NCBI GenBank assembly: GCA_003117195.1
Contig: BDSI01000006.1
Coordinates: 1,548,238-1,612,237 of the forward strand
Reading direction: 5' to 3'
DNA length: 64,000 bases
Source of the DNA: Eudorina sp. 2006-703-Eu-15
Lineage: Eukaryota; Chlorophyta; Chlorophyceae; Chlamydomonadales; Volvocaceae
Positions 30,591-64,000 of the stretch are shown here, one piece after another; the first letter of the stretch is position 1; every line of letters starts with the position of its first letter. A program made the translations under genes and the position numbers. The notes beneath the pieces were generated by a model, which saw only the letters and a program-made list of their open reading frames with translations, searched no databases and was not told the DNA's origin.

Positions 30591-30613
30591 CGGGGAAGGC
30601 TACGAAGGCTCGC

Positions 30614-31084: not shown

Positions 31085-31139
31085 GCAGATTGCGCAGACT
31101 ACATGAGGCTGCAGTCACTACCACGAATCAATCCCTAAA

Positions 31140-31557
31140 TTAACCCCGCGGGGCATCTACCAGCATCGACCAGCATCGACCAGCCGCCGCCGGATATCGT
31201 GATGCCTGTACGGTCGGGGCTGCCCCCCATCGCTCCACCCCCGAGAAGACCGCCTCCGGACAGCTGTGCAGCTCCTCCTCTCCTCTCCTCCAGCCTCAGA
31301 GCCAAACCGCCGCCCACCATGGTCCCGCAACCACGGCCGCCTCGGTCACCACCGCCATAACGCCATAACCGCCGCCACAACCATCGCCGCCGCCACCGCC
31401 CGGCCGTACCAGATCCAGATCCGGACCCAAAGCCGGGACCGGCGGGACCCCGGAAGACTGCGGCTGGACGATGATGGGAGGTGCCCACCGCCATAATGTA
31501 CCGTGGGACGGCCAACCGGGAGGATAAGTACGGGGAAGAGGGGAGTTTGGGGAGCAA
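31140..31557. other. Unique left flank of the satellite array
   Basis: GC-rich DNA with a triple ACCAGCATCG repeat near 31160-31187 and CCGCCA-type triplet tracts. Long open frames on the minus strand run from here into the array and look compositional. No gene is supported. Confidence 0.5.
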
Positions 31558-33008
31558 TCCGGCCTGACGTACATGCCGTACATGTCGTCGCGCCTCCCAT
31601 CGAACAACCAAAGCCTTCCCGCCTCCCAAGGTGCTAGATCCACATCCGCCAAGATGCAATGCAATGCACAGCAAAGAGGCAACAAAACGAAACCAAAGCA
31701 CAGCGCAGAACAAGGCAGCGCGGGAGGAGAACGGGCAGCACACGAGGCAGGAACGCAGTCTTCCCGCTCCCAACTCCCACCGCCGGCTACCAACCTCACC
31801 GTCAGCCAGTGGAAAGTGATGTTGGGCAGGGCAGGCGGCGGCGGCGGCGGCGGCGTCGCCGCCATGTGCAGGCTGCTGATGCCGCGGCGGCGGCGGCGGC
31901 GGAAGCGGCTACAGCAGCGGCGGCGGCGGCGCCGCCGCCGCAGCCACAGGGCGCGAAGAAGAGCGCGATGCCGCCGCTGCTCCCGCTGCTGCCGCTGCGG
32001 CTCGGAACAGTGGTCTTGAGGGCGATGTGGGTAAACGAGTGCAGGACTCGGATGTCCCGCCGGTCGGCGGAGGGGGCCAGGGAGGCACTTCGGCAGGCGA
32101 AGAAGCTGACGTGGACGACCTGTGCGGGGACGCGCGGGCGTCGCCGCGGGGGAATGGACGGGCGAGGGAACTAGTGAGGCAGCAGAACGTGGTGGAATGA
32201 GGGTACCGCGCACCCCACCCTCCAACATCCAGGCCCTACCCCGCCCCTCCCAGCAGAGCATTCCGGCCTGACGTACATGCCGTACATGTCGTCGCGCCTC
32301 CCATCGAACAACCAAAGCCTTCCCGCCTCCCAAGGTGCTAGATCCACATCCGCCAAGATGCAATGCAATGCACAGCAAAGAGGCAACGAAACGAAACCAA
32401 AGCACAGCGCAGAACAAGGCAGCGCGGGAGGAGAACGGACAGCACACGAGGCAGGAACGCAGTCTTCCCGCTCCCAACTCCCACCGCCGGCTACCAACCT
32501 CACCGTCAGCCAGTGGGAAGTGATGTTGGGCAGGGCACGCGGCGGCGGCGGCGGCGGCGTCGCCGCCATGTGCAGGCTGCTGATGCCGCGGCGGCGGCGG
32601 CGGCGGAAGCGGCTACAGCAGCGGCGGCGGCGGCGCCGCCGCCGCAGCCACAGGGCGCGAAGAAGAGCGCGATGCCGCCGCTGCTCCCGCTGCTGCCGCT
32701 GCGGCTCGGAACAGTGGTCTTGAGGTCGATGTGGGTAAACGAGTGCAGGACTCGGATGTCCCGCCGGTCGGCGGAGAGGGCCAGGGAGGCACTTCGGCAG
32801 GCGAAGAAGCTGACGTGGACGACCTGTGCGGGGACGCGCGGGCGCCGCCGCGGGGGAATGGACGGGCGAGGGAACTAGTGAGGCAGCAGAACGTGGTGGA
32901 ATGAGGGTACCGCGCACCCCACCCTCCCACATCCAGGCCCTACCCCGCCCCTCCCAGCAGAGCATTCCGGCCTGACGTACATGCCGTACATGTCGTCGCG
33001 CCTCCCAT

Positions 33009-33041
33009 CGAACAACCAAAACAACCAAACAACCAAAGCCT
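33009..33041. repeat. 17-bp AACAACC expansion in satellite copy 3
   Basis: Standard units read AACAACCAAAGCC after the anchor. Here the AACAACCAAA part is repeated, adding 17 bp. A near-identical 16-bp expansion occurs in the copy at 36517 (about 36548-36572), five units later. Confidence 0.85.
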
Positions 33042-36000
33042 TCCCGCCTCCCAAGGTGCTAGATCCACATCCGCCAAGATGCAATGCAATGCACAGCAAA
33101 GAGGCAACGAAACGAAACCAAAGCACAGCGCAGAACAAGGCAGCGCGGGAGGAGAACGGACAGCACACGAGGCAGGAACGCAGTCTTCCCGCTCCCAACT
33201 CCCACCGCCGGCTACCAACCTCACCGTCAGCCAGTGGGAAGTGATGTTGGGCAGGGCACGCGGCGGCGGCGGCGGCGGCGTCGCCGCCATGTGCAGGCTG
33301 CTGATGCCGCGGCGGCGGCGGCGGCGGAAGCGGCTACAGCAGCGGCGGCGGCGGCGCCGCCGCCGCAGCCACAGGGCGCGAAGAAGAGCGCGATGCCGCC
33401 GCTGCTCCCGCTGCTGCCGCTGCGGCTCGGAACAGTGGTCTTGAGGGCGATGTGGGTAAACGAGTGCAGGACTCGGATGTCCCGCCGGTCGGCGGAGAGG
33501 GCCAGGGAGGCACTTCGGCAGGCGAAGAAGCTGACGTGGACGACCTGTGCGGGGACGCGCGGGCGCCGCCGCGGGGAATGGACGGGCGAGGGAACTAGTG
33601 AGGCAGCAGAACGTGGTGGAATGAGGGTACCGCGCACCCCACCCTCCCACATCCAGGCCCTACCCCGCCCCTCCCAGCAGAGCATTCCGGCCTGACGTAC
33701 ATGCCGTACATGTCGTCGCGCCTCCCATCGAACAACCAAAGCCTTCCCGCCTCCCAAGGTGCTAGATCCACATCCGCCAAGATGCAATACAATGCACAGC
33801 AAAGAGGCAACGAAACGAAACCAAAGCACAGCGCAGAACAAGGCAGCGCGGGAGGAGAACGGACAGCACACGAGGCAGGAACGCAGTCTTCCCGCTCCCA
33901 ACTCCCACCGCCGGCTACCAACCTCACCGTCAGCCAGTGGGAAGTGATGTTGGGCAGGGCAGGCGGCGGCGGCGGCGGCGGCGTCGCCGCCATGTGCAGG
34001 CTGCTGATGCCGCGGCGGCGGCGGCGGCGGAAGCGGCTACAGCAGCGGCGGCGGCGGCGCCGCCGCCGCAGCCACAGGGCGCGAAGAAGAGCGCGATGCC
34101 GCCGCTGCTCCCGCTGCTGCCGCTGCGGCTCGGAACAGTGGTCTTGAGGGCGATGTGGGTAAACGAGTGCAGGACTCGGATGTCCCGCCGGTCGGCGGAG
34201 AGGGCCAGGGAGGCACTTCGGCAGGCGAAGAAGCTGACGTGGACGACCTGTGCGGGGACGCGCGGGCGCCGCCGCGGGGGAATGGACGGGCGAGGGAACT
34301 AGTGAGGCAGCAGAACGTGGTGGAATGAGGGTACCGCGCACCCCACCCTCCCACATCCAGGCCCTACCCCGCCCCTCCCAGCAGAGCATTCCGGCCTGAC
34401 GTACATGCCGTACATGTCGTCGCGCCTCCCATCGAACAACCAAAGCCTTCCCGCCTCCCAAGGTGCTAGATCCACATCCGCCAAGATGCAATGCAATGCA
34501 CAGCAAAGAGGCAACGAAACGAAACCAAAGCACAGCGCAGAACAAGGCAGCGCGGGAGGAGAACGGACAGCACACGAGGCAGGAACGCAGTCTTCCCGCT
34601 CCCAACTCCCACCGCCGGCTACCAACCTCACCGTCAGCCAGTGGGAAGTGATGTTGGGCAGGGCACGCGGCGGCGGCGGCGGCGGCGTCGCCGCCATGTG
34701 CAGGCTGCTGATGCCGCGGCGGCGGCGGCGGCGGAAGCGGCTACAGCAGCGGCGGCGGCGGCGCCGCCGCCGCAGCCACAGGGCGCGAAGAAGAGCGCGA
34801 TGCCGCCGCTGCTCCCGCTGCTGCCGCTGCGGCTCGGAACAGTGGTCTTGAGGGCGATGTGGGTAAACGAGTGCAGGACTCGGATGTCCCGCCGGTCGGC
34901 GGAGAGGGCCAGGGAGGCACTTCGGCAGGCGAAGAAGCTGACGTGGACGACCTGTGCGGGGACGCGCGGGCGCCGCCGCGGGGGAATGGACGGGCGAGGG
35001 AACTAGTGAGGCAGCAGAACGTGGTGGAATGAGGGTACCGCGCACCCCACCCTCCCACATCCAGGCCCTACCCCGCCCCTCCCAGCAGAGCATTCCGGCC
35101 TGACGTACATGCCGTACATGTCGTCGCGCCTCCCATCGAACAACCAAAGCCTTCCCGCCTCCCAAGGTGCTAGATCCACATCCGCCAAGATGCAATACAA
35201 TGCACAGCAAAGAGGCAACGAAACGAAACCAAAGCACAGCGCAGAACAAGGCAGCGCGGGAGGAGAACGGACAGCACACGAGGCAGGAACGCAGTCTTCC
35301 CGCTCCCAACTCCCACCGCCGGCTACCAACCTCACCGTCAGCCAGTGGGAAGTGATGTTGGGCAGGGCAGGCGGCGGCGGCGGCGGCGGCGTCGCCGCCA
35401 TGTGCAGGCTGCTGATGCCGCGGCGGCGGCGGCGGCGGAAGCGGCTACAGCAGCGGCGGCGGCGGCGCCGCCGCCGCAGCCACAGGGCGCGAAGAAGAGC
35501 GCGATGCCGCCGCTGCTCCCGCTGCTGCCGCTGCGGCTCGGAACAGTGGTCTTGAGGGCGATGTGGGTAAACGAGTGCAGGACTCGGATGTCCCGCCGGT
35601 CGGCGGAGAGGGCCAGGGAGGCACTTCGGCAGGCGAAGAAGCTGACGTGGACGACCTGTGCGGGGACGCGCGGGCGCCGCCGCGGGGGAATGGACGGGCG
35701 AGGGAACTAGTGAGGCAGCAGAACGTGGTGGAATGAGGGTACCGCGCACCCCACCCTCCCACATCCAGGCCCTACCCCGCCCCTCCCAGCAGAGCATTCC
35801 GGCCTGACGTACATGCCGTACATGTCGTCGCGCCTCCCATCGAACAACCAAAGCCTTCCCGCCTCCCAAGGTGCTAGATCCACATCCGCCAAGATGCAAT
35901 GCAATGCACAGCAAAGAGGCAACGAAACGAAACCAAAGCACAGCGCAGAACAAGGCAGCGCGGGAGGAGAACGGACAGCACACGAGGCAGGAACGCAGTC

Positions 36001-39000
36001 TTCCCGCTCCCAACTCCCACCGCCGGCTACCAACCTCACCGTCAGCCAGTGGGAAGTGATGTTGGGCAGGGCACGCGGCGGCGGCGGCGGCGGCGTCGCC
36101 GCCATGTGCAGGCTGCTGATGCCGCGGCGGCGGCGGCGGCGGAAGCGGCTACAGCAGCGGCGGCGGCGGCGCCGCCGCCGCAGCCACAGGGCGCGAAGAA
36201 GAGCGCGATGCCGCCGCTGCTCCCGCTGCTGCCGCTGCGGCTCGGAACAGTGGTCTTGAGGTCGATGTGGGTAAACGAGTGCAGGACTCGGATGTCCCGC
36301 CGGTCGGCGGAGAGGGCCAGGGAGGCACTTCGGCAGGCGAAGAAGCTGACGTGGACGACCTGTGCGGGGACGCGCGGGCGCCGCCGCGGGGGAATGGACG
36401 GGCGAGGGAACTAGTGAGGCAGCAGAACGTGGTGGAATGAGGGTACCGCGCACCCCACCCTCCCACATCCAGGCCCTACCCCGCCCCTCCCAGCAGAGCA
36501 TTCCGGCCTGACGTACATGCCGTACATGTCGTCGCGCCTCCCATCGAACAACCAAAACAACCAACAACCAAAGCCTTCCCGCCTCCCAAGGTGCTAGATC
36601 CACATCCGCCAAGATGCAATGCAATGCACAGCAAAGAGGCAACGAAACGAAACCAAAGCACAGCGCAGAACAAGGCAGCGCGGGAGGAGAACGGACAGCA
36701 CACGAGGCAGGAACGCAGTCTTCCCGCTCCCAACTCCCACCGCCGGCTACCAACCTCACCGTCAGCCAGTGGGAAGTGATGTTGGGCAGGGCACGCGGCG
36801 GCGGCGGCGGCGGCGTCGCCGCCATGTGCAGGCTGCTGATGCCGCGGCGGCGGCGGCGGCGGAAGCGGCTACAGCAGCGGCGGCGGCGGCGCCGCCGCCG
36901 CAGCCACAGGGCGCGAAGAAGAGCGCGATGCCGCCGCTGCTCCCGCTGCTGCCGCTGCGGCTCGGAACAGTGGTCTTGAGGGCGATGTGGGTAAACGAGT
37001 GCAGGACTCGGATGTCCCGCCGGTCGGCGGAGAGGGCCAGGGAGGCACTTCGGCAGGCGAAGAAGCTGACGTGGACGACCTGTGCGGGGACGCGCGGGCG
37101 CCGCCGCGGGGGAATGGACGGGCGAGGGAACTAGTGAGGCAGCAGAACGTGGTGGAATGAGGGTACCGCGCACCCCACCCTCCCACATCCAGGCCCTACC
37201 CCGCCCCTCCCAGCAGAGCATTCCGGCCTGACGTACATGCCGTACATGTCGTCGCGCCTCCCATCGAACAACCAAAGCCTTCCCGCCTCCCAAGGTGCTA
37301 GATCCACATCCGCCAAGATGCAATACAATGCACAGCAAAGAGGCAACGAAACGAAACCAAAGCACAGCGCAGAACAAGGCAGCGCGGGAGGAGAACGGAC
37401 AGCACACGAGGCAGGAACGCAGTCTTCCCGCTCCCAACTCCCACCGCCGGCTACCAACCTCACCGTCAGCCAGTGGGAAGTGATGTTGGGCAGGGCACGC
37501 GGCGGCGGCGGCGGCGGCGTCGCCGCCATGTGCAGGCTGCTGATGCCGCGGCGGCGGCGGCGGCGGAAGCGGCTACAGCAGCGGCGGCGGCGGCGCCGCC
37601 GCCGCAGCCACAGGGCGCGAAGAAGAGCGCGATGCCGCCGCTGCTCCCGCTGCTGCCGCTGCGGCTCGGAACAGTGGTCTTGAGGGCGATGTGGGTAAAC
37701 GAGTGCAGGACTCGGATGTCCCGCCGGTCGGCGGAGAGGGCCAGGGAGGCACTTCGGCAGGCGAAGAAGCTGACGTGGACGACCTGTGCGGGGACGCGCG
37801 GGCGCCGCCGCGGGGGAATGGACGGGCGAGGGAACTAGTGAGGCAGCAGAACGTGGTGGAATGAGGGTACCGCGCACCCCACCCTCCCACATCCAGGCCC
37901 TACCCCGCCCCTCCCAGCAGAGCATTCCGGCCTGACGTACATGCCGTACATGTCGTCGCGCCTCCCATCGAACAACCAAAGCCTTCCCGCCTCCCAAGGT
38001 GCTAGATCCACATCCGCCAAGATGCAATGCAATGCACAGCAAAGAGGCAACGAAACGAAACCAAAGCACAGCGCAGAACAAGGCAGCGCGGGAGGAGAAC
38101 GGACAGCACACGAGGCAGGAACGCAGTCTTCCCGCTCCCAACTCCCACCGCCGGCTACCAACCTCACCGTCAGCCAGTGGGAAGTGATGTTGGGCAGGGC
38201 ACGCGGCGGCGGCGGCGGCGGCGTCGCCGCCATGTGCAGGCTGCTGATGCCGCGGCGGCGGCGGCGGCGGAAGCGGCTACAGCAGCGGCGGCGGCGCGCC
38301 GCCGCCGCAGCCACAGGGCGCGAAGAAGAGCGCGATGCCGCCGCTGCTCCCGCTGCTGCCGCTGCGGCTCGGAACAGTGGTCTTGAGGTCGATGTGGGTA
38401 AACGAGTGCAGGACTCGGATGTCCCGCCGGTCGGCGGAGAGGGCCAGGGAGGCACTTCGGCAGGCGAAGAAGCTGACGTGGACGACCTGTGCGGGGACGC
38501 GCGGGCGCCGCCGCGGGGGAATGGACGGGCGAGGGAACTAGTGAGGCAGCAGAACGTGGTGGAATGAGGGTACCGCGCACCCCACCCTCCCACATCCAGG
38601 CCCTACCCCGCCCCTCCCAGCAGAGCATTCCGGCCTGACGTACATGCCGTACATGTCGTCGCGCCTCCCATCGAACAACCAAAGCCTTCCCGCCTCCCAA
38701 GGTGCTAGATCCACATCCGCCAAGATGCAATACAATGCACAGCAAAGAGGCAACGAAACGAAACCAAAGCACAGCGCAGAACAAGGCAGCGCGGGAGGAG
38801 AACGGACAGCACACGAGGCAGGAACGCAGTCTTCCCGCTCCCAACTCCCACCGCCGTCTACCAACCTCACCGTCAGCCAGTGGAAAGTGATGTTGGGCAG
38901 GGCAGGCGGCGGCGGCGGCGGCGGCGTCGCCGCCATGTGCAGGCTGCTGATGCCGCGGCGGCGGCGGCGGCGGAAGCGGCTACAGCAGCGGCGGCGGCGG

Positions 39001-42000
39001 CGCCGCCGCCGCAGCCACAGGGCGCGAAGAAGAGCGCGATGCCGCCGCTGCTCCCGCTGCTGCCGCTGCGGCTCGGAACAGTGGTCTTGAGGGCGATGTG
39101 GGTAAACGAGTGCAGGACTCGGATGTCCCGCCGGTCGGCGGAGAGGGCCAGGGAGGCACTTCGGCAGGCGAAGAAGCTGACGTGGACGACCTGTGCGGGG
39201 ACGCGCGGGCGCCGCCGCGGGGGAATGGACGGGCGAGGGAACTAGTGAGGCAGCAGAACGTGGTGGAATGAGGGTACCGCGCACCCCACCCTCCCACATC
39301 CAGGCCCTACCCCGCCCCTCCCAGCAGAGCATTCCGGCCTGACGTACATGCCGTACATGTCGTCGCGCCTCCCATCGAACAACCAAAGCCTTCCCGCCTC
39401 CCAAGGTGCTAGATCCACATCCGCCAAGATGCAATACAATGCACAGCAAAGAGGCAACGAAACGAAACCAAAGCACAGCGCAGAACAAGGCAGCGCGGGA
39501 GGAGAACGGACAGCACACGAGGCAGGAACGCAGTCTTCCCGCTCCCAACTCCCACCGCCGGCTACCAACCTCACCGTCAGCCAGTGGGAAGTGATGTTGG
39601 GCAGGGCACGCGGCGGCGGCGGCGGCGGCGTCGCCGCCATGTGCAGGCTGCTGATGCCGCGGCGGCGGCGGCGGCGGAAGCGGCTACAGCAGCGGCGGCG
39701 GCGGCGCCGCCGCCGCAGCCACAGGGCGCGAAGAAGAGCGCGATGCCGCCGCTGCTCCCGCTGCTGCCGCTGCGGCTCGGAACAGTGGTCTTGAGGGCGA
39801 TGTGGGTAAACGAGTGCAGGACTCGGATGTCCCGCCGGTCGGCGGAGAGGGCCAGGGAGGCACTTCGGCAGGCGAAGAAGCTGACGTGGACGACCTGTGC
39901 GGGGACGCGCGGGCGCCGCCGCGGGGGAATGGACGGGCGAGGGAACTAGTGAGGCAGCAGAACGTGGTGGAATGAGGGTACCGCGCACCCCACCCTCCCA
40001 CATCCAGGCCCTACCCCGCCCTCCCAGCAGAGCATTCCGGCCTGACGTACATGCCGTACATGTCGTCGCGCCTCCCATCGAACAACCAAAGCCTTCCCGC
40101 CTCCCAAGGTGCTAGATCCACATCCGCCAAGATGCAATGCAATGCACAGCAAAGAGGCAACGAAACGAAACCAAAGCACAGCGCAGAACAAGGCAGCGCG
40201 GGAGGAGAACGGACAGCACACGAGGCAGGAACGCAGTCTTCCCGCTCCCAACTCCCACCGCCGGCTACCAACCTCACCGTCAGCCAGTGGAAGTGATGTT
40301 GGGCAGGGCACGCGGCGGCGGCGGCGGCGGCGTCGCCGCCATGTGCAGGCTGCTGATGCCGCGGCGGCGGCGGCGGCGGAAGCGGCTACAGCAGCGGCGG
40401 CGGCGGCGCCGCCGCCGCAGCCACAGGGCGCGAAGAAGAGCGCGATGCCGCCGCTGCTCCCGCTGCTGCCGCTGCGGCTCGGAACAGTGGTCTTGAGGGC
40501 GATGTGGGTAAACGAGTGCAGGACTCGGATGTCCCGCCGGTCGGCGGAGAGGGCCAGGGAGGCACTTCGGCAGGCGAAGAAGCTGACGTGGACGACCTGT
40601 GCGGGGACGCGCGGGCGCCGCCGCGGGGGAATGGACGGGCGAGGGAACTAGTGAGGCAGCAGAACGTGGTGGAATGAGGGTACCGCGCACCCCACCCTCC
40701 CACATCCAGGCCCTACCCCGCCCCTCCCAGCAGAGCATTCCGGCCTGACGTACATGCCGTACATGTCGTCGCGCCTCCCATCGAACAACCAAAGCCTTCC
40801 CGCCTCCCAAGGTGCTAGATCCACATCCGCCAAGATGCAATGCAATGCACAGCAAAGAGGCAACGAAACGAAACCAAAGCACAGCGCAGAACAAGGCAGC
40901 GCGGGAGGAGAACGGACAGCACACGAGGCAGGAACGCAGTCTTCCCGCTCCCAACTCCCACCGCCGGCTACCAACCTCACCGTCAGCCAGTGGGAAGTGA
41001 TGTTGGGCAGGGCACGCGGCGGCGGCGGCGGCGGCGTCGCCGCCATGTGCAGGCTGGCTGATGCCGCGGCGGCGGCGGCGGCGGAAGCGGCTACAGCAGC
41101 GGCGGCGGCGGCGCCGCCGCCGCAGCCACAGGGCGCGAAGAAGAGCGCGATGCCGCCGCTGCTCCCGCTGCTGCCGCTGCGGCTCGGAACAGTGGTCTTG
41201 AGGGCGATGTGGGTAAACGAGTGCAGGACTCGGATGTCCCGCCGGTCGGCGGAGAGGGCCAGGGAGGCACTTCGGCAGGCGAAGAAGCTGACGTGGACGA
41301 CCTGTGCGGGGACGCGCGGGCGCCGCCGCGGGGAATGGACGGGCGAGGGAACTAGTGAGGCAGCAGAACGTGGTGGAATGAGGGTACCGCGCACCCCACC
41401 CTCCCACATCCAGGCCCTACCCCGCCCCTCCCAGCAGAGCATTCCGGCCTGACGTACATGCCGTACATGTCGTCGCGCCTCCCATCGAACAACCAAAGCC
41501 TTCCCGCCTCCCAAGGTGCTAGATCCACATCCGCCAAGATGCAATGCAATGCACAGCAAAGAGGCAACGAAACGAAACCAAAGCACAGCGCAGAACAAGG
41601 CAGCGCGGGAGGAGAACGGGCAGCACACGAGGCAGGAACGCAGTCTTCCCGCTCCCAACTCCCACCGCCGGCTACCAACCTCACCGTCAGCCAGTGGAAG
41701 TGATGTTGGGCAGGGCACGCGGCGGCGGCGGCGGCGGCGTCGCCGCCATGTGCAGGCTGCTGATGCCGCGGCGGCGGCGGCGGCGGAAGCGGCTACAGCA
41801 GCGGCGGCGGCGGCGCCGCCGCCGCAGCCACAGGGCGCGAAGAAGAGCGCGATGCCGCCGCTGCTCCCGCTGCTGCCGCTGCGGCTCGGAACAGTGGTCT
41901 TGAGGGCGATGTGGGTAAACGAGTGCAGGACTCGGATGTCCGCCGGTCGGCGGAGAGGGCCAGGGAGGCACTTCGGCAGGCGAAGAAGCTGACGTGGACG

Positions 42001-45000
42001 ACCTGTGCGGGGACGCGCGGGCGCCGCCGCGGGGAATGGACGGGCGAGGAACTAGTGAGGCAGCAGAACGTGGTGGAATGAGGGTACCGCGCACCCCACC
42101 CTCCCACATCCAGGCCCTACCCCGCCCCTCCCAGCAGAGCATTCCGGCCTGACGTACATGCCGTACATGTCGTCGCGCCTCCCATCGAACAACCAAAGCC
42201 TTCCCGCCTCCCAAGGTGCTAGATCCACATCCGCCAAGATGCAATGCAATGCACAGCAAAGAGGCAACGAAACGAAACCAAAGCACAGCGCAGAACAAGG
42301 CAGCGCGGGAGGAGAACGGGCAGCACACGAGGCAGGAACGCAGTCTTCCCGCTCCCAACTCCACCGCCGGCTACCAACCTCACCGTCAGCCAGTGGGAAG
42401 TGATGTTGGGCAGGGCACGCGGCGGCGGCGGCGGCGGCGTCGCCGCCATGTGCAGGCTGCTGATGCCGCGGCGGCGGCGGCGGCGGAAGCGGCTACAGCA
42501 GCGGCGGCGGCGGCGCCGCCGCCGCAGCCACAGGGCGCGAAGAAGAGCGCGATGCCGCCGCTGCTCCCGCTGCTGCCGCTGCGGCTCGGAACAGTGGTCT
42601 TGAGGGCGATGTGGGTAAACGAGTGCAGGACTCGGATGTCCCGCCGGTCGGCGGAGAGGGCCAGGGAGGCACTTCGGCAGGCGAAGAAGCTGACGTGGAC
42701 GACCTGTGCGGGGACGCGCGGGCGCCGCCGCGGGGAATGGACGGGCGAGGGAACTAGTGAGGCAGCAGAACGTGGTGGAATGAGGGTACCGCGCACCCCA
42801 CCCTCCACATCCAGGCCCTACCCCGCCCCTCCCAGCAGAGCATTCCGGCCTGACGTACATGCCGTACATGTCGTCGCGCCTCCCATCGAACAACCAAAGC
42901 CTTCCCGCCTCCCAAGGTGCTAGATCCACATCCGCCAAGATGCAATGCAATGCACAGCAAAGAGGCAACGAAACGAAACCAAAGCACAGCGCAGAACAAG
43001 GCAGCGCGGGAGGAGAACGGACAGCACACGAGGCAGGAACGCAGTCTTCCCGCTCCCAACTCCCACCGCCGGCTACCAACCTCACCGTCAGCCAGTGGAA
43101 AGTGATGTTGGGCAGGGCACGCGGCGGCGGCGGCGGCGGCGTCGCCGCCATGTGCAGGCTGCTGATGCCGCGGCGGCGGCGGCGGCGGAAGCGGCTACAG
43201 CAGCGGCGGCGGCGGCGCCGCCGCCGCAGCCACAGGGCGCGAAGAAGAGCGCGATGCCGCCGCTGCTCCCGCTGCTGCCGCTGCGGCTCGGAACAGTGGT
43301 CTTGAGGGCGATGTGGGTAAACGAGTGCAGGACTCGGATGTCCCGCCGGTCGGCGGAGAGGGCCAGGGAGGCACTTCGGCAGGCGAAGAAGCTGACGTGG
43401 ACGACCTGTGCGGGGACGCGCGGGCGCCGCCGCGGGGAATGGACGGGCGAGGGAACTAGTGAGGCAGCAGAACGTGGTGGAATGAGGGTACCGCGCACCC
43501 CACCCTCCCACATCCAGGCCCTACCCCGCCCCTCCCAGCAGAGCATTCCGGCCTGACGTACATGCCGTACATGTCGTCGCGCCTCCCATCGAACAACCAA
43601 AGCCTTCCCGCCTCCCAAGGTGCTAGATCCACATCCGCCAAGATGCAATGCAATGCACAGCAAAGAGGCAACGAAACGAAACCAAAGCACAGCGCAGAAC
43701 AAGGCAGCGCGGGAGGAGAACGGACAGCACACGAGGCAGGAACGCAGTCTTCCCGCTCCCAACTCCCACCGCCGTCTACCAACCTCACCGTCAGCCAGTG
43801 GAAAGTGATGTTGGGCAGGGCAGGCGGCGGCGGCGGCGGCGGCGTCGCCGCCATGTGCAGGCTGCTGATGCCGCGGCGGCGGCGGCGGCGGAAGCGGCTA
43901 CAGCAGCGGCGGCGGCGGCGCGCCGCCGCAGCCACAGGGCGCGAAGAAGAGCGCGATGCCGCCGCTGCTCCCGCTGCTGCCGCTGCGGCTCGGAACAGTG
44001 GTCTTGAGGGCGATGTGGGTAAACGAGTGCAGGACTCGGATGTCCCGCCGGTCGGCGGAGAGGGCCAGGGAGGCACTTCGGCAGGCGAAGAAGCTGACGT
44101 GGACGACCTGTGCGGGGACGCGCGGGCGCCGCCGCGGGGAATGGACGGGCGAGGGAACTAGTGAGGCAGCAGAACGTGGTGGAATGAGGGTACCGCGCAC
44201 CCCACCCTCCCACATCCAGGCCCTACCCCGCCCCTCCCAGCAGAGCATTCCGGCCTGACGTACATGCCGTACATGTCGTCGCGCCTCCCATCGAACAACC
44301 AAAGCCTTCCCGCCTCCCAAGGTGTTAGATCCACATCCGCCAAGATGCAATGCAATGCACAGCAAAGAGGCAACGAAACGAAACCAAAGCACAGCGCAGA
44401 ACAAGGCAGCGCGGGAGGAGAACGGACAGCACACGAGGCAGGAACGCAGTCTTCCCGCTCCCAACTCCCACCGCCGGCTACCAACCTCACCGTCAGCCAG
44501 TGGGAAGTGATGTTGGGCAGGGCACGCGGCGGCGGCGGCGGCGGCGTCGCCGCCATGTGCAGGCTGCAGCGGCGCTGATGCCGCGGCGGCGGCGGCGGCG
44601 GAAGCGGCTACAGCAGCGGCAGCGGCGGCGGCGCCGCCGCAGCCACAGGGCGCGAAGAAGAGCGCGATGCCGCCGCTGCTCCCGCTGCTGCCGCTGCGGC
44701 TCGGAACAGTGGTCTTGAGGGCGATGTGGGTAAACGAGTGCAGGACTCGGATGTCCCGCCGGTCGGCGGAGAGGGCCAGGGAGGCACTTCGGCAGGCGAA
44801 GAAGCTGACGTGGACGACCTGTGCGGGGACGCGCGGGCGCCGCCGCGGGGGAATGGACGGGCGAGGGAACTAGTGAGGCAGCAGAACGTGGTGGAATGAG
44901 GGTACTGCGCACCCCACCCTCCCACATCCAGGCCCTACCCCGCCCCTCCCAGCAGAGCATTCCGGCCTGACGTACATGCCGTACATGTCGTCGCGCCTCC

Positions 45001-47724: not shown

Positions 47725-47790
47725 TCCCACATCCAGGCCCTACCCGCCCCTCCCCCACCCTCCCACATCCAGGCCCTACACATCCGCCCC
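47725..47790. repeat. Local duplication of the C-rich spacer in one satellite copy
   Basis: CACATCCAGGCCCTAC occurs twice here instead of once, which lengthens the distance to the next anchor to 744 bp. It may be a real slippage product or an assembly error, since nearby units carry many indels. Confidence 0.65.
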
Positions 47791-49939: not shown

Positions 49940-50191
49940 ATGCCGTACATGTCGTCGCGCCTCCCATCGAACAACCAAAGCCTTCCCGCCTCCCAAGGTG
50001 CTAGATCCACATCCGCCAAGATGCAATGCAATGCACAGCAAAGAGGCAACGAAACGAAACCAAAGCACAGCGCAGAACAAGGCAGCGGGAGGAGAACGGA
50101 CAGCACACGAGGCAGGAACGCGCGCACCCCACCCGTCCCACATCCAGGCCCTACCCCGCCCCTCCCAGCAGAGCATTCCGGCCTGACGTAC
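49940..50191. repeat. Truncated satellite copy (252 bp)
   Basis: After the anchor this copy follows the standard unit to about 50120 (GGCAGGAACG) and then jumps to the CGCGCACCCC spacer. About 450 bp, including the whole GGC/GCC core, is missing. CGC at the junction gives short microhomology. Confidence 0.85.
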
Positions 50192-53100: not shown

Positions 53101-56100
53101 CAGCAAGAGGCAACGAAACGAAACCAAAGCACAGCGCAGAACAAGCCAGCGCGGGAGGAGAACGGCAGCACACGAGGCAGGAACGCAGTCTTCCCGCTCC
53201 AACTCCCACGCCGCTACCAACCTCACCGTCAGCCAGTGGGAAGTGATGTTGGGCAGGGCAGCGGCGCGGCGCGGCGGCGTCGCCGCCATGTGCAGGCTGC
53301 TGATGCCGCGGCGGCGGCGCGCGGAAGCGGCTACAGCAGCGGCGCGCGGCGGCCGCCGCCGCAGCCACAGGGCGCGAAGAAGAGCGCGATGCCGCCGCTG
53401 CTCCCGCTGCTGCCGCTGCCGGCTCGGAACAGTGGTCTTGAGGGGCATGTGGGTAAACGAGTGCAGGACTCCGATGTCCCGCGGTCGGCGGAGAGGGCCA
53501 GGGAGGCACTTCGCAGGCGAAGAAGCTGACGTGGACGACCTGTGCGGGGACGCGCGGCGCCGCCGCGGGAATGGACGGGCGAGGAACTAGTGAGGCAGCA
53601 GAACGTGGTGGAATGAGGGTACCGCGCACCCCACCCTCCACATCCAGGCCCTACCCCGCCCCTCCCAGCAGAGCATTCCGGCCTGACGTACATGCCGTAC
53701 ATGTCGTCGCGCCTCCCATCGAACAACCAAAGCCTTCCCGCCTCCCAAGGTGCTAGATCCACATCCGCCAAGATGCAATGCAATGCACAGCAAAGAGGCA
53801 ACGAAACGAAACCAAAGCACAGCGCAGAACAAGGCAGCGCGGGAGGAGAACGGACAGCACACGAGGCAGGAACGCAGTCTTCCCGCTCCCAACTCCCACC
53901 GCCGCTACCAACCTCACCGTCAGCCAGTGGGAAGTGATGTTGGGCAGGGCACGCGGCGGCGGCGGCGGCGGCGTCGCCGCCATGTGCAGGCTGCTGATGC
54001 CGCGGCGGCGGCGGCGGCGGAAGCGGCTACAGCAGCGGCGCGGCGGGCGCCGCCGCAGCCACAGGGCGCGAAGAAGAGCGCGATGCCGCCGCTGCTCCCG
54101 CTGCTGCCGCTGCGGCTCGGAACAGTGGTCTTGAGGGCGATGTGGGTAAACGAGTGCAGGACTCGGATGTCCCGCCGGTCGGCGGAGAGGGCCAGGGAGG
54201 CACTTCGGCAGGCGAAGAAGCTGACGTGGACGACCTGTGCGGGGACGCGCGGGCGCCGCCGCGGGGAATGGACGGGCGAGGGAACTAGTGAGGCAGCAGA
54301 ACGTGGTGGAATGAGGGTACCGCGCACCCCACCCTCCCACATCCAGGCCCTACCCCGCCCCTCCCAGCAGAGCATTCCGGCCTGACGTACATGCCGTACA
54401 TGTCGTCGCGCCTCCCATCGAACAACCAAAGCCTTCCCGCCTCCCAAGGTGCTAGATCCACATCCGCCAAGATGCAATGCAATGCACAGCAAAGAGGCAA
54501 CGAAACGAAACCAAAGCACAGCGCAGAACAAGGCAGCGCGGGAGGAGAACGGACAGCACACGAGGCAGGAACGCAGTCTTCCCGCTCCCAACTCCCACCG
54601 CCGGCTACCAACCTCACCGTCAGCCAGTGGGAAGTGATGTTGGGCAGGGCAGGCGGCGGCGGCGGCGGCGGCGTCGCCGCCATGTGCAGGCTGCTGATGC
54701 CGCGGCGGCGGCGGCGGCGGAAGCGGCTACAGCAGCGGCGGCGGCGCCGCCGCCGCAGCCACAGGGCGCGAAGAAGAGCGCGATGCCGCCGCTGCTCCCG
54801 CTGCTGCCGCTGCGGCTCGGAACAGTGGTCTTGAGGGCGATGTGGGTAAACGAGTGCAGGACTCGGATGTCCCGCCGGTCGGCGGAGAGGGCCAGGGAGG
54901 CACTTCGGCAGGCGAAGAAGCTGACGTGGACGACCTGTGCGGGGACGCGCGGGCGCCGCCGCGGGGAATGGACGGGCGAGGGAACTAGTGAGGCAGCAGA
55001 ACGTGGTGGAATGAGGGTACCGCGCACCCCACCCTCCCACATCCAGGCCCTACCCCGCCCCTCCCAGCAGAGCATTCCGGCCTGACGTACATGCCGTACA
55101 TGTCGTCGCGCCTCCCATCGAACAACCAAAGCCTTCCCGCCTCCCAAGGTGCTAGATCCACATCCGCCAAGATGCAATGCAATGCACAGCAAAGAGGCAA
55201 CGAAACGAAACCAAAGCACAGCGCAGAACAAGGCAGCGCGGGAGGAGAACGGACAGCACACGAGGCAGGAACGCAGTCTTCCCGCTCCCAACTCCCACCG
55301 CCGGCTACCAACCTCACCGTCAGCCAGTGGGAAGTGATGTTGGGCAGGGCAGGCGGCGGCGGCGGCGGCGGCGTCGCCGCCATGTGCAGGCTGCTGATGC
55401 GCGCGGCGGCGCGGCGGCGGAAGCGGCTACAGCAGCGGCGGCGGCGGCGCGCCGCCGCAGCCACAGGGCGCGAAGAAGAGCGCGATGCCGCCGCTGCTCC
55501 CGCTGCTGCCGCTGCGGCTCGGAACAGTGGTCTTGAGGGCGATGTGGGTAAACGAGTGCAGGACTCGGATGTCCCGCCGGTCGGCGGAGAGGGCCAGGGA
55601 GGCACTTCGGCAGGCGAAGAAGCTGACGTGGACGACCTGTGCGGGGACGCGCGGGCGCCGCCGCGGGGAATGGACGGGCGAGGGAACTAGTGAGGCAGCA
55701 GAACGTGGTGGAATGAGGGTACGCGCACCCCACCCTCCCACATCCAGGCCCTACCCCGCCCCTCCCAGCAGAGCATTCCGGCCTGACGTACATGCCGTAC
55801 ATGTCGTCGCGCCTCCCATCGAACAACCAAAGCCTTCCCGCCTCCCAAGGTGCTAGATCCACATCCGCCAAGATGCAATGCAATGCACAGCAAAGAGGCA
55901 ACGAAACGAAACCAAAGCACAGCGCAGAACAAGGCAGCGCGGGAGGAGAACGGACAGCACACGAGGCAGGAACGCAGTCTTCCCGCTCCCAACTCCCACC
56001 GCCGGCTACCAACCTCACCGTCAGCCAGTGGGAAGTGATGTTGGGCAGGGCAGGCGGCGGCGGCGGCGGCGGCGTCGCCGCCATGTGCAGGCTGCAGCGG

Positions 56101-56498
56101 CGGCTGATGCCGCGGCGGCGGCGGCGGCGGAAGCGGCTACAGCAGCGGCGGCGGCGGCGCCGCCGCAGCCACAGGGCGCGAAGAAGAGCGCGATGCCGCC
56201 GCTGCTCCCGCTGCTGCCGCTGCGGCTCGGAACAGTGGTCTTGAGGGCGATGTGGGTAAACGAGTGCAGGACTCGGATGTCCCGCCGGTCGGCGGAGAGG
56301 GCCAGGGAGGCACTTCGGCAGGCGAAGAAGCTGACGTGGACGACCTGTGCGGGGACGCGGGGCGCCGCCGCGGGGAATGGACGGGCGAGGGAACTAGTGA
56401 GGCAGCAGAACGTGGTGGAATGAGGGTACCGCGCACCCCACCCTCCCACATCCAGGCCCTACCCCGCCCTCCCAGCAGAGCATTCCGGCCTGACGTAC

Positions 56499-56878
56499 AT
56501 GCCGTACATGTCGTCGCGCCTCCCATCGAACAACCAAAGCCTTCCCGCCTCCCAAGGTGCTAGATCCACATCCGCCAAGATGCAATGCAATGCACAGCAA
56601 AGAGGCAACGAAACGAAACCAAAGCACAGCGCAGAACAAGGCAGCGCGGGAGGAGAACGGACAGCACACGAGGCAGGAACGCAGTCTTCCCGCTCCCAAC
56701 TCCCACCGCCGTCTACCAACCTCACCGTCAGCCCGGAAGCGGCTACAGCAGTCTTGAGGGCGAATTGCCGCCGCGGGGAATGGACGGGCGAGGGAACTAG
56801 TGAGCAGCACGCGCACCCCACCCTCCCACATCCAGGCCCTACCCCGCCCTCCCAGCAGAGCATTCCGGCCTGACGTAC
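56499..56878. repeat. Mosaic, internally deleted satellite copy (380 bp)
   Basis: The copy is standard to about 56732, then has short pieces of later unit segments joined directly: CGGAAGCGGCTACAGCAG, then TCTTGAGGGCGA, then CCGCCGCGGGGAATGG. Several separate deletions are needed. This suggests collapse of hard-to-read GC tracts, or real multi-step deletion. Confidence 0.8.
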
Positions 56879-59800
56879 ATGCCGTACATGTCGTCGCGCC
56901 TCCATCGAACAACCAAAGCCTTCCCGCCTCCCAAGGTGCTAGATCCACATCCGCCAAGATGCAATGCAATGCACAGCAAAGAGGCAACGAAACGAAACCA
57001 AAGCACAGCGCAGAACAAGGCAGCGGGAGGAGAACGGGCAGCACACGAGGCAGGAACGCAGTCTTCCGCTCCCAACTCCCACCGCCGGCTACCAACCTCA
57101 CCGTCAGCCAGTGGAAGTGATGTTGGGCAGGGCAGGCGGCGGCGGCGGCGGCGGCGTCGCCGCCATGTGCAGGCTGCTGATGCGCGGCGGCGGCGGCGGA
57201 AGCGGCTACAGCAGCGGCGGCGGCGGCGCCGCCGCAGCCACAGGGCGCGAAGAAGAGCGCGATGCCGCCGCTGCTCCCGCTGCTGCCGCTGCGGCTCGGA
57301 ACAGTGGTCTTGAGGGCGATGTGGGTAAACGAGTGCAGGACTCGGATGTCCCGCCGGTCGGCGGAGAGGGCCAGGGAGGCACTTCGGCAGGCGAAGAAGC
57401 TGACGTGGACGACCTGTGCGGGGACGCGCGGGCGCCGCCGCGGGGGAATGGACGGGCGAGGGAACTAGTGAGGCAGCAGAACGTGGTGGAATGAGGGTAC
57501 CGCGCACCCCACCCTCCCACATCCAGGCCCTACCCCGCCCTCCCAGCAGAGCATTCCGGCCTGACGTACATGCCGTACATGTCGTCGCGCCTCCCATCGA
57601 ACAACCAAAGCCTTCCCGCCTCCCAAGGTGCTAGATCCACATCCGCCAAGATGCAATGCAATGCACAGCAAAGAGGCAACGAAACGAAACCAAAGCACAG
57701 CGCAGAACAAGGCAGCGCGGGAGGAGAACGGACAGCACACGAGGCAGGAACGCAGTCTTCCCGCTCCCAACTCCCACCGCCGGCTACCAACCTCACCGTC
57801 AGCCAGTGGGAAGTGATGTTGGGCAGGGCAGGCGGCGGCGGCGGCGGCGGCGTCGCCGCCATGTGCAGGCTGCTGATGCCGCGGCGGCGGCGGCGGCGGA
57901 AGCGGCTACAGCAGCGGCGGCGGCGGCCGCCGCCGCAGCCACAGGGCGCGAAGAAGAGCGCGATGCCGCCGCTGCTCCCGCTGCTGCCGCTGCGGCTCGG
58001 AACAGTGGTCTTGAGGGCGATGTGGGTAAACGAGTGCAGGACTCGGATGTCCCGCCGGTCGGCGGAGAGGGCCAGGGAGGCACTTCGGCAGGCGAAGAAG
58101 CTGACGTGGACGACCTGTGCGGGGACGCGCGGCGCCGCCGCGGGGGAATGGACGGGCGAGGGAACTAGTGAGGCAGCAGAACGTGGTGGAATGAGGGTAC
58201 GCGCACCCCACCCTCCCACATCCAGGCCCTACCCCGCCCTCCCAGCAGAGCATTCCGGCCTGACGTACATGCCGTACATGTCGTCGCGCCTCCCATCGAA
58301 CACCAAAGCCTTCCCGCCTCCCAAGGTGCTAGATCCACATCCGCCAAGATGCAATGCAATGCACAGCAAAGAGGCAACGAAACGAAACCAAAGCACAGCG
58401 CAGAACAAGGCAGCGCGGGAGGAGAACGGCAGCACACGAGGCAGGAACGCAGTCTTCCCGCTCCCAACTCCCACCGCCGGCTACCAACCTCACCGTCAGC
58501 CAGTGGAAAGTGATGTTGGGCAGGGCAGCGGCGGCGGCGGCGGCGGCGTCGCCGCCATGTGCAGGCTGCTGATGCCGCGCGGCGGCGGCGGCGGAAGCGG
58601 CTACAGCAGCGGCGGCGGCGGCCGCCGCCGCAGCCACAGGGCGCGAAGAAGAGCGCGATGCCGCCGCTGCTCCCGCTGCTGCCGCTGCGGCTCGGAACAG
58701 TGGTCTTGAGGCGATGTGGGTAAACGAGTGCAGGACTCGGATGTCCCGCCGGTCGGCGGAGAGGGCCAGGGAGGCACTTCGGCAGGCGAAGAAGCTGACG
58801 TGGACGACCTGTGCGGGGACGCGCGGGCGCCGCCGCGGGGGAATGGACGGGCGAGGGAACTAGTGAGGCAGCAGAACGTGGTGGAATGAGGGTACCGCGC
58901 ACCCCACCCTCCCACATCCAGGCCCTACCCCGCCCTCCCAGCAGAGCATTCCGGCCTGACGTACATGCCGTACATGTCGTCGCGCCTCCCATCGAACAAC
59001 CAAAGCCTTCCCGCCTCCCAAGGTGCTAGATCCACATCCGCCAAGATGCAATGCAATGCACAGCAAAGAGGCAACGAAACGAAACCAAAGCACAGCGCAG
59101 AACAAGGCAGCGCGGGAGGAGAACGGACAGCACACGAGGCAGGAACGCAGTCTTCCCGCTCCCAACTCCCACGCCGGCTACCAACCTCACCGTCAGCCAG
59201 TGGGAAGTGATGTTGGGCAGGGCACGCGCGGCGGCGGCGGCGGCGTCGCCGCCATGTGCAGGCTGCTGATGCCGCGGCGGCGGCGGCGGCGGAAGCGGCT
59301 ACAGCAGCGGCGGCGGCGGCGGCCGCCGCCGCAGCCACAGGGCGCGAAGAAGAGCGCGATGCCGCCGCTGCTCCCGCTGCTGCCGCTGCGGCTCGGAACA
59401 GTGGTCTTGAGGGCGATGTGGGTAAACGAGTGCAGGACTCGGATGTCCGCCGGTCGGCGGAGAGGGCCAGGGAGGCACTTCGGCAGGCGAAGAAGCTGAC
59501 GTGGACGACCTGTGCGGGGACGCGCGGGCGCCGCCGCGGGGGAATGGACGGGCGAGGGAACTAATGAGGCAGCAGAACGTGGTGGAATGAGGGTACCGCG
59601 CACCCCACCCTCCCACATCCAGGCCCTACCCCGCCCCTCCCAGCAGAGCATTCCGGCCTGACGTACATGCCGTACATGTCGTCGCGCCTCCCATCGAACA
59701 ACCAAAGCCTTCCGCCTCCCAAGGTGCTAGATCCACATCCGCCAAGATGCAATGCAATGCACAGCAAAGAGGCAACGAAACGAAACCAAAGCACAGCGCA

Positions 59801-62800
59801 GAACAAGGCAGCGCGGGAGGAGAACGGACAGCACACGAGGCAGGAACGCAGTCTTCCCGCTCCCAACTCCCACCGCCGGCTACCAACCTCACCGTCAGCC
59901 AGTGGGAAGTGATGTTGGGCAGGGCACGCGGCGGCGGCGGCGGCGGCGTCGCCGCCATGTGCAGGCTGCACGGGCTGATGCCGCGGCGGCGGCGGCGGCG
60001 GAAGCGGCTACAGCAGCGGCAGCGGCGGCGGCGCCGCCGCAGCCACAGGGCGCGAAGAAGAGCGCGATGCCGCCGCTGCTCCGCTGCTGCCGCTGCGGCT
60101 CGGAACAGTGGTCTTGAGGGCGATGTGGGTAAACGAGTGCAGGACTCGGATGTCCCGCCGGTCGGCGGAGAGGGCCAGGGAGGCACTTCGGCAGGCGAAG
60201 AAGCTGACGTGGACGACCTGTGCGGGGACGCGCGGGCGCCGCCGCGGGGGAATGGACGGGCGAGGGAACTAGTGAGGCAGCAGAACGTGGTGGAATGAGG
60301 GTACCGCGCACCCCACCCTCCCACATCCAGGCCCTACCCCGCCCCTCCCAGCAGAGCATTCCGGCCTGACGTACATGCCGTACATGTCGTCGCGCCTCCC
60401 ATCGAACAACCAAAGCCTTCCCGCCTCCCAAGGTGCTAGATCCACATCCGCCAAGATGCAATGCAATGCACAGCAAAGAGGCAACGAAACGAAACCAAAG
60501 CACAGCGCAGAACAAGGCAGCGCGGGAGGAGAACGGACAGCACACGAGGCAGGAACGCAGTCTTCCCGCTCCCAACTCCCACCGCCGGCTACCAACCTCA
60601 CCGTCAGCCAGTGGAAGTGATGTTGGGCAGGGCACGCGGCGGCGGCGGCGGCGGCGTCGCCGCCATGTGCAGGCTGCTGATGCCGCGGCGGCGGCGGCGG
60701 CGGAAGCGGCTACAGCAGCGGCGGCGGCGGCGCCGCCGCCGCAGCCACAGGGCGCGAAGAAGAGCGCGATGCCGCCGCTGCTCCCGCTGCTGCCGCTGCG
60801 GCTCGGAACAGTGGTCTTGAGGGCGATGTGGGTAAACGAGTGCAGGACTCGGATGTCCCGCCGGTCGGCGGAGAGGGCCAGGGAGGCACTTCGGCAGGCG
60901 AAGAAGCTGACGTGGACGACCTGTGCGGGGACGCGCGGGCGCCGCCGCGGGGGAATGGACGGGCGAGGGAACTAGTGAGGCAGCAGAACGTGGTGGAATG
61001 AGGGTACCGCGCACCCCACCCTCCCACATCCAGGCCCTACCCCGCCCCTCCCAGCAGAGCATTCCGGCCTGACGTACATGCCGTACATGTCGTCGCGCCT
61101 CCCATCGAACAACCAAAGCCTTCCCGCCTCCCAAGGTGCTAGATCCACATCCGCCAAGATGCAATGCAATGCACAGCAAAGAGGCAACGAAACGAAACCA
61201 AAGCACAGCGCAGAACAAGGCAGCGCGGGAGGAGAACGGGCAGCACACGAGGCAGGAACGCAGTCTTCCCGCTCCCAACTCCCACCGCCGGCTACCAACC
61301 TCACCGTCAGCCAGTGGAAAGTGATGTTGGGCAGGGCAGGCGGCGGCGGCGGCGGCGGCGTCGCCGCCATGTGCAGGCTGCTGATGCCGCGGCGGCGGCG
61401 GCGGCGGAAGCGGCTACAGCAGCGGCGGCGGCGGCGCCGCCGCCGCAGCCACAGGGCGCGAAGAAGAGCGCGATGCCGCCGCTGCTCCCGCTGCTGCCGC
61501 TGCGGCTCGGAACAGTGGTCTTGAGGGCGATGTGGGTAAACGAGTGCAGGACTCGGATGTCCCGCCGGTCGGCGGAGAGGGCCAGGGAGGCACTTCGGCA
61601 GGCGAAGAAGCTGACGTGGACGACCTGTGCGGGGACGCGCGGGCGCCGCCGCGGGGGAATGGACGGGCGAGGGAACTAGTGAGGCAGCAGAACGTGGTGG
61701 AATGAGGGTACCGCGCACCCCACCCTCCCACATCCAGGCCCTACCCCGCCCCTCCCAGCAGAGCATTCCGGCCTGACGTACATGCCGTACATGTCGTCGC
61801 GCCTCCCATCGAACAACCAAAGCCTTCCCGCCTCCCAAGGTGCTAGATCCACATCCGCCAAGATGCAATGCAATGCACAGCAAAGAGGCAACGAAACGAA
61901 ACCAAAGCACAGCGCAGAACAAGGCAGCGCGGGAGGAGAACGGACAGCACACGAGGCAGGAACGCAGTCTTCCCGCTCCCAACTCCCACCGCCGGCTACC
62001 AACCTCACCGTCAGCCAGTGGGAAGTGATGTTGGGCAGGGCACGCGGCGGCGGCGGCGGCGGCGTCGCCGCCATGTGCAGGCTGCTGATGCCGCGGCGGC
62101 GGCGGCGGCGGAAGCGGCTACAGCAGCGGCGGCGGCGGCGCCGCCGCCGCAGCCACAGGGCGCGAAGAAGAGCGCGATGCCGCCGCTGCTCCCGCTGCTG
62201 CCGCTGCGGCTCGGAACAGTGGTCTTGAGGGCGATGTGGGTAAACGAGTGCAGGACTCGGATGTCCCGCCGGTCGGCGGAGAGGGCCAGGGAGGCACTTC
62301 GGCAGGCGAAGAAGCTGACGTGGACGACCTGTGCGGGGACGCGCGGGCGCCGCCGCGGGGGAATGGACGGGCGAGGGAACTAGTGAGGCAGCAGAACGTG
62401 GTGGAATGAGGGTACCGCGCACCCCACCCTCCAACATCCAGGCCCTACCCCGCCCCTCCCAGCAGAGCATTCCGGCCTGACGTACATGCCGTACATGTCG
62501 TCGCGCCTCCCATCGAACAACCAAAGCCTTCCCGCCTCCCAAGGTGCTAGATCCACATCCGCCAAGATGCAATGCAATGCACAGCAAAGAGGCAACGAAA
62601 CGAAACCAAAGCACAGCGCAGAACAAGGCAGCGCGGGAGGAGAACGGGCAGCACACGAGGCAGGAACGCAGTCTTCCCGCTCCCAACTCCCACCGCCGGC
62701 TACCAACCTCACCGTCAGCCAGTGGAAAGTGATGTTGGGCAGGGCAGGCGGCGGCGGCGGCGGCGGCGTCGCCGCCATGTGCAGGCTGCTGATGCCGCGG

Positions 62801-64000
62801 CGGCGGCGGCGGCGGAAGCGGCTACAGCAGCGGCGGCGGCGGCGCCGCCGCCGCAGCCACAGGGCGCGAAGAAGAGCGCGATGCCGCCGCTGCTCCCGCT
62901 GCTGCCGCTGCGGCTCGGAACAGTGGTCTTGAGGGCGATGTGGGTAAACGAGTGCAGGACTCGGATGTCCCGCCGGTCGGCGGAGAGGGCCAGGGAGGCA
63001 CTTCGGCAGGCGAAGAAGCTGACGTGGACGACCTGTGCGGGGACGCGCGGGCGCCGCCGCGGGGGAATGGACGGGCGAGGGAACTAATGAGGCAGCAGAA
63101 CGTGGTGGAATGAGGGTACCGCGCACCCCACCCTCCCACATCCAGGCCCTACCCCGCCCCTCCCAGCAGAGCATTCCGGCCTGACGTACATGCCGTACAT
63201 GTCGTCGCGCCTCCCATCGAACCAAAGCCTTCCCGCCTCCCAAGGTGTTAGATCCACATCCGCCAAGATGCAATGCAATGCACAGCAAAGAGGCAACGAA
63301 ACGAAACCAAAGCACAGCGCAGAACAAGGCAGCGCGGGAGGAGAACGGACAGCACACGAGGCAGGAACGCAGTCTTCCCGCTCCCAACTCCCACCGCCGG
63401 CTACCAACCTCACCGTCAGCCAGTGGGAAGTGATGTTGGGCAGGGCACGCGGCGGCGGCGGCGGCGGCGTCGCCGCCATGTGCAGGCTGCAGCGGCGGCT
63501 GATGCCGCGGCGGCGGCGGCGGCGGAAGCGGCTACAGCAGCGGCAGCGGCGGCGGCGCCGCCGCAGCCACAGGGCGCGAAGAAGAGCGCGATGCCGCCGC
63601 TGCTCCCGCTGCTGCCGCTGCGGCTCGGAACAGTGGTCTTGAGGGCGATGTGGGTAAACGAGTGCAGGACTCGGATGTCCCGCCGGTCGGCGGAGAGGGC
63701 CAGGGAGGCACTTCGGCAGGCGAAGAAGCTGACGTGGACGACCTGTGCGGGGACGCGCGGGCGCCGCCGCGGGGGAATGGACGGGCGAGGGAACTAGTGA
63801 GGCAGCAGAACGTGGTGGAATGAGGGTACTGCGCACCCCACCCTCCCACATCCAGGCCCTACCCCGCCCGTCCCAGCAGAGCATTCCGGCCTGACGTACA
63901 TGCCGTACATGTCGTCGCGCCTCCCATCGAACAACCAAAGCCTTCCCGCCTCCCAAGGTGTTAGATCCACATCCGCCAAGATGCAATGCAATGCACAGCA

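Follow-up and report, generated by a model that had tools for sequence, protein, structure and literature searches.

What is the 704-bp tandem repeat at the right-hand side of a 64,000-nt stretch of the Eudorina sp. 2006-703-Eu-15 genome (contig BDSI01000006.1, here C6, positions 1,548,238–1,612,237; hereafter the window), and from what did it arise? We find that the satellite is genuine, has clear boundaries, occupies an interstitial position and derives from VPS8, a subunit of the CORVET endosomal tether, and that it is most probably a gene-fragment satellite, in which a deleted VPS8 pseudogene fragment was amplified and then homogenised by unequal exchange. The genome assembly comprises 181.2 Mb in 3,033 contigs, and 184 kb of C6 (2,071,381 bp) were read around the array, consisting of 20 kb upstream, the window and 100 kb downstream.

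Using a 20-mer anchor, we detected 48 exact copies within the window, the first at 31,563 and with a typical spacing of ~704 bp, and 96 copies in the whole array (C6:1,579,800–1,646,417), all of which were on the plus strand and none on the minus strand. The part of the array inside the window is as follows.

31,552–64,000, strand not assigned: 704-bp tandem array, defined by anchor positions and unit alignment, continuing to C6:1,647,094.

From the first unit match at window 31,552 to the end of the last unit-like sequence the array measures ~67.3 kb, is single-orientation, contains no N and is joined without a gap to assembled flanks on both sides. A preliminary description of the window had given at least 48 copies from 31,558 to the window edge; the count stands for the window, while the start is 31,552 and the window edge is not the end of the array. 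Of the 95 anchor intervals, 17 were 704 bp and 12 were 703 bp, the others ranging from 678 to 797 bp apart from two short units (252 and 380 bp), and the final six units were all long (751–797 bp). Mean pairwise substitution identity was 99.4% among the in-window units (46 of 48, the two short ones being dropped; the last of the 48 extends beyond the window edge) and 99.0% across the whole array (93 of 95 units, with the same exclusion), and neighbouring units were ~97.6% identical once indels were counted. Units were more alike the closer they lay to each other, the six right-most units were the most divergent of the array, and exact repeats inside the array, the longest of 1,631 bp, had many offsets near whole-unit multiples. 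When the genome was searched with a 25-mer at up to three mismatches, 139 forward and 46 reverse matches were found, compared with 24 and 26 for the reversed control, and the 96 matches with 0–1 mismatch all fell within the 704-bp array (among 100 matches listed in order of mismatches). The anchor counts and identities confirm the highly homogeneous 704-bp satellite of the preliminary description, and its suggestion of recent amplification or ongoing homogenisation fits a satellite that is homogenised and looks recent. Over the in-window array, AT skew was ~+0.27 to +0.37 with GC skew near zero.

The copy number of 96 is an assembly-based estimate. Short indels per unit averaged 5.4 in units u20–u39 and u69–u79, 2.75 in u12–u19 and 2.22 in u60–u68, compared with 0.85 in u40–u59, 0.44 in u80–u88 and 0.25 in u00–u11. 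Substitution counts were similar across units and were not raised in the indel-rich ones, and the indel-rich zones look like uncorrected long-read error. These zones, the two truncated units and the 20-kb PacBio libraries from which the probable source assembly was built (PMC6123790), which are shorter than the array, would all suit an assembly artefact, the real array being far shorter or longer. We regard this as improbable, given that variants differ from unit to unit along the array, that no exact repeat exceeds 1,631 bp and that both flanks are joined without gaps. An error of this kind would alter the number of units, whereas the array would still exist and have the same origin, and the exact copy number is less certain than the array's existence.

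On its minus strand, the unit contains two non-adjacent pieces of VPS8 that lie ~1.5 kb apart in the gene, both in the same orientation and with their splice junctions kept. The gene sequence compared was 4,994 bases of contig C116, and the pieces are given here in the coordinates of the first full unit, with both junctions read by eye.

31,597–31,832, minus strand: unit 35–270, comprising the end of an upstream VPS8 exon, the donor (junction 31,799/31,800) and the intron start; 67.8% over 261 columns to C116:175,924–176,177 (E 1.9e-15).
31,884–32,152, minus strand: unit 322–590, comprising the end of a later VPS8 intron, the acceptor (junction 32,119/32,120) and the VVHVSFF exon; 72.6% over 296 columns to C116:177,707–177,998.

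Against the gene, unit 396–592 scored 158 bits (maximum of 37.4 in 300 dinucleotide shuffles; 29.2 when reversed) and unit 35–270 scored 72.5 bits (30.1 and 23.8, respectively). In the upstream match, the exon of the gene ends in ALPDITQHWLTV, followed by the donor GTGAGG and the intron. This match had been predicted from L006, a relative on contig C41 in which unit 47–249 adjoins a VPS8 stretch; the arrangement implied that unit 47–249 should lie just upstream of the part of the gene then known, and the next 500 bases matched unit 35–270. Because introns are kept on both segments, the copying was at the DNA level and not by retrocopying. The preliminary description had recognised no gene in the unit and had held that a match to a known gene family would speak against its account; two segments of the unit match just such a gene. 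Unit positions ~355–650 also recur as a module at other loci, with the minus-strand reading ..AQVVHVSFFxxRxASxALSADRR..LHSFTHIxLKTxVxSR... A non-coding RNA gene was considered and rejected, since the window yielded neither an Rfam match at the gathering score nor a tRNA, and an RNA folding signal (z of -2.05 on the plus and -2.95 on the minus strand, 20 shuffles each) was set aside as explicable by GGC/GCC runs.

The donor was identified through C116. A protein search with a related frame from another array, with a period of 2,380 bp, returned two proteins (P0008 and P0009). P0008 aligned to the C116 locus over residues 1–390 (50.7%, E 7.4e-81), whereas its matches to the satellites were confined to residues 1–65, which indicates that C116 holds the gene. 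A spliced peptide from C116 (236 aa, joined by eye) matched the Pfam models Beta-prop_VPS8 (3.3e-13) and VPS8_N (8.9e-11), both above the cut-off, and judged by these sequence matches the donor gene is a VPS8 homologue. A second protein search with the C116 gene returned P0008 only, and no useful relative was found among solved structures, the best being WDR24 (7.5e-4), a generic propeller.

The array would then be a pseudogene relic. Part of VPS8 would have been duplicated at the DNA level with its introns, ~1.5 kb would have been lost from the middle of the copy, the deleted fragment would have come to lie inside a low-copy dispersed repeat, and the fused 704-bp piece would have multiplied head to tail, its units being kept uniform by unequal exchange. 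We propose unequal exchange because of the exact internal repeats at near-whole-unit offsets, the likeness of neighbours and the less uniform right edge. We infer the order of these events, the amplification mechanism, its recency and the lack of function.

The dispersed repeat was recognised from paralogues of the surrounding sequence. The array is contained in E1 (~C6:1,575,942–1,653,617), which has two paralogues, E2 in inverted orientation (C6:1,535,158–1,541,063) and E3 in direct orientation (from C6:1,385,627). E3 contains unit 355–648 once, and E2 contains unit 352–704 with 1–45, a weak stretch resembling 272–391 and a 78-bp piece at its left end. To the left of the array, four features were found.

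27,705–31,551, strand not assigned: left flank, partly common to E2 (inverted) and E3 (direct) on C6, from paralogue alignment.
30,015–31,184, strand not assigned: stretch absent from E2, seen as an alignment break and bounded by 14-bp direct repeats (30,001–30,014 and 31,185–31,198).
31,285–31,328, minus strand: short segment of the left flank that matches VPS8, 88.6% over 44 bp to C116:175,871–175,914.
31,400–31,464, minus strand: another short left-flank segment that matches VPS8, 78.5% over 65 columns to C116:176,583–176,644 (E 2.9e-6).

A 404-bp piece of the left flank (29,609–30,012) had 16 matches in the genome, 3 of them on C6. Eleven of the 13 matches elsewhere were on contigs that also have module matches (C19, C189, C233, C385, C965, C998, C1594 and C1834), and C9 and C56 had left-flank matches without module matches. 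A piece of the right flank had 10 genome matches. This recurrence of the flanks indicates that the array expanded within a dispersed repeat of low copy number. A near-perfect inverted repeat with arms of ~24 bases was seen by eye at window 30,526–30,595, within the stretch missing from E2. A 130–169 bp sequence flanking E1 was tried as a long terminal repeat and rejected, as its motif occurs at 7 genome places (up to two mismatches), including 5 on C6, but is missing from the right ends of E2 and E3.

A second, exon-like tandem repeat (250–268-bp unit) adjoins the 704-bp array at C6:1,647,095–1,651,807 (L012). Its period is 268 bp in E1, ~251 bp in E3 and ~263 bp on contig C79 (C79:578,624–584,830), and its anchors number 18 in E1, 18 in E3 (19 by another anchor) and one in E2. 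A 59-aa reading of this unit gave 150 scored matches among 162 candidates (17 in E1, 19 in E3, 1 in E2, 24 on C79, 7 on C1534, 81 on C22 at 144,208–175,173 and 1 on C103), of which 149 were free of stops.

These observations raise the question of whether E1–E3 are copies of a non-autonomous transposon that had picked up part of VPS8 and whose repeat region then expanded. The 16 left-flank and 10 right-flank matches, the eight contigs that hold 11 of the 13 off-C6 left-flank matches together with module matches, the adjoining 704- and 268-bp tandem repeats within E1 and the 14-bp direct repeat bounding the extra E1 stretch are all in its favour. On the other hand, the 10 frames tried (three from the left flank) gave no Pfam match, whether to a transposase, a reverse transcriptase or any other domain, clear terminal repeats were not found, no target-site duplication was seen in the copies, which were partly read, the ends of E1, E2 and E3 differ, and the three copies lie within 270 kb of one contig, as expected from local duplication. 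We therefore treat the transposon as a tentative possibility, and it adds a carrier to the gene-fragment satellite without contradicting it. A comparable system is Tetris/TIR-220 of Drosophila virilis, for which PMC4079207 describes long homogeneous arrays, with as many as 66 copies, that were amplified within a dispersed element holding few units elsewhere. The 704-bp array is likewise long, homogeneous and within a dispersed element whose other copies hold little of the unit, but the Tetris unit is part of the transposon terminal repeats (PMC4079207), whereas the 704-bp unit comes from a host gene and its carrier is only putatively a transposon.

VPS8 pieces were also found in arrays elsewhere in the genome. 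Four other arrays were read in part, on C385 and C189 (period ~2,380 bp), C1142 (1,728 bp) and C19 (spacing ~2.7–3.3 kb), and all four contained two VPS8 segments (1,124–1,271 and ~2,000–2,350 of the joined stretch) at 75–85% identity, which indicates that amplification elsewhere in the genome involved further pieces of this gene. Module matches of ~70%, many of them ~2,380 bp apart, were observed on the small contigs C385, C189, C233, C639, C965, C998, C1052, C1142, C1594, C1725 and C1834, of which C385, C189 and C1142 were read, in part; this suggests a larger VPS8-related satellite at which the assembly breaks. L006 (C41:502,296–505,491) is another VPS8 relic, with 69% over 700 columns to the gene and a pseudo-exon with a stop. 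L003 (C19:424,574–425,245) is a lone copy of unit length whose two ends both fall near unit 501–514 and overlap by 14 bp, as though it had been excised from a circle or were the remnant of an array.

Tandem units containing protein-gene sequence are also known from human D4Z4 and Drosophila Stellate, which are gene-bearing tandem arrays or gene-derived satellites, but the 704-bp unit differs from these in being two pieces joined over a deletion, without an intact gene frame. In most satellites the origin can no longer be seen; in this genome the donor, partial sister elements and arrays of several periods occur together, so that the succession from gene copy through deleted fragment to satellite can be put in order and dated. 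This raises the question of why a single housekeeping gene should have had pieces of it amplified at multiple loci. Among the open-licence publications listed by our searches, none dealt with this satellite or with VPS8-derived repeats; one such listing gave 10 of 472 papers, and the term vps8 was absent from all 10.

We then compared substitution patterns within the VPS8-derived parts. Between the unit and the gene, codon positions 1, 2 and 3 differed by 0.22, 0.20 and 0.19 (54 positions each), and between the 704-bp and C19 arrays by 0.28, 0.24 and 0.26 (intron 0.24, exon 0.26). Across five families (the 704-bp, C19 and 2,380-bp arrays and the C19 and C41 single copies), divergence was 0.21 in the intron part and 0.15 in the exon part. 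The exon was closer to the gene than the intron in 7 of 7 rows (0.11–0.28 versus 0.30–0.40), a pattern that constraint on the exon of the gene itself would produce. The least variable part of the module spans the acceptor.

32,099–32,130, minus strand: 32-base block spanning the acceptor, with 88 exact copies in the whole array.

This block had 170 genome matches at up to three mismatches, compared with 0 for the control, a striking count, although the contrast with adjacent columns is more modest (permutation p of ~0.01).

Several results weigh against a relic of VPS8 free of function. The unspliced frames of C116 matched the VPS8 propeller models poorly (4e-5 and 0.13, both below the cut-off). 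Within the 4,994 gene bases, no match was found for unit 591–704 plus 1–34 (148 bp), for the GGC-rich unit 271–321 (51 bp) or for the adjacent 268-bp repeat. Codon positions differed unevenly in two pairs of satellites, namely the C19 and 2,380-bp arrays (0.11, 0.03 and 0.14; intron 0.17, exon 0.09) and the 704-bp array and E3 (0.07, 0.04 and 0.15; intron 0.02, exon 0.09), a possible sign of constraint at some point in their history. The acceptor block (-11 to +9) was also the least variable across the five families, with a permutation p of ~0.01 against neighbouring columns.

Two functional explanations were weighed against these data. The first 21 bases of one VPS8 exon were perfect or had one mismatch in all five families, and the arrays might act on VPS8 via antisense or small RNAs aimed at these bases, hence the repeated formation of arrays; we consider this very unlikely. 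Alternatively, the repeats could be working exons or regulatory repeats of a large minus-strand gene, as the preserved splice-like junctions, the stop-free reading of the 268-bp unit in 149 of 150 matches and the low second-position change in two pairs would allow. However, 704 is not a multiple of 3 and the stop-to-stop frames are broken in every unit, which also led us to reject one long coding repeat, and codon positions are flat between unit and gene. The 268-type units differ between loci by an 8-bp deletion and single-base gaps (in E3 and C79) and the donor is not kept in C79, so that this repeat, tried as a tandem-exon gene, was likewise read as a relic. Working exons or regulatory repeats thus seem highly improbable, and we retain the deleted, amplified pseudogene fragment as the best account of the array.

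The position of the array bears on two further proposals. The preliminary description had compared the array with the Sultan repeats of Chlamydomonas reinhardtii, a related green alga (Sultan repeats are mentioned in PMC10030371), and had noted the absence of a telomere repeat from the window, leaving centromeric and interstitial positions open. Sultan repeats are likewise long-unit, homogenised, single-orientation arrays, and their unit size is also similar. A subtelomeric or centromeric satellite of this type, possibly internalised by chromosome fusion, would explain these features. The contig, however, continues for ~424 kb beyond the array, neither the 184 kb read nor the 10 kb at each end of C6 contained a telomere repeat, and the satellite anchor at 0–1 mismatch is confined to a single locus and not spread over several chromosome ends. 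Furthermore, exons of ordinary genes adjoin the array, namely two aldehyde dehydrogenase stretches at window 19.8–21.8 kb and a GH16-like exon at 26.1–26.4 kb with a score just below the cut-off. A centromeric satellite should occur on many chromosomes or loci, and a single locus beside ordinary genes disfavours a centromere role. We consider a subtelomeric or centromeric (Sultan-like) satellite extremely improbable: the array and the Sultan repeats are set apart by position and distribution, the 704-bp array being interstitial, at one locus, without a telomere repeat nearby and with a unit from VPS8. Of the positions left open, the interstitial one is correct. Exact TTTTAGGG x3 sites numbered only five in the assembly (on C3, C83, C126 and C716; L024–L028), with only the C716 site at a contig end. 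The ZeppL clusters at Chlamydomonas centromeres, described in PMC8226300 as nested LINE (long interspersed nuclear element) copies with reverse transcriptase, are also locus-specific repeat clusters in the same algal group, but no reverse transcriptase was seen in the frames tried at the 704-bp locus.

Elsewhere in the window, an 822-aa frame (10,822–13,287) had its best match in Pleodorina starrii (78% identity over 45% of the query), followed by matches in Volvox carteri (71% over 46%) and Gonium pectorale (78% over 10%), and the Pleodorina and Volvox matches bear out the volvocine type of genome that the preliminary description had expected.

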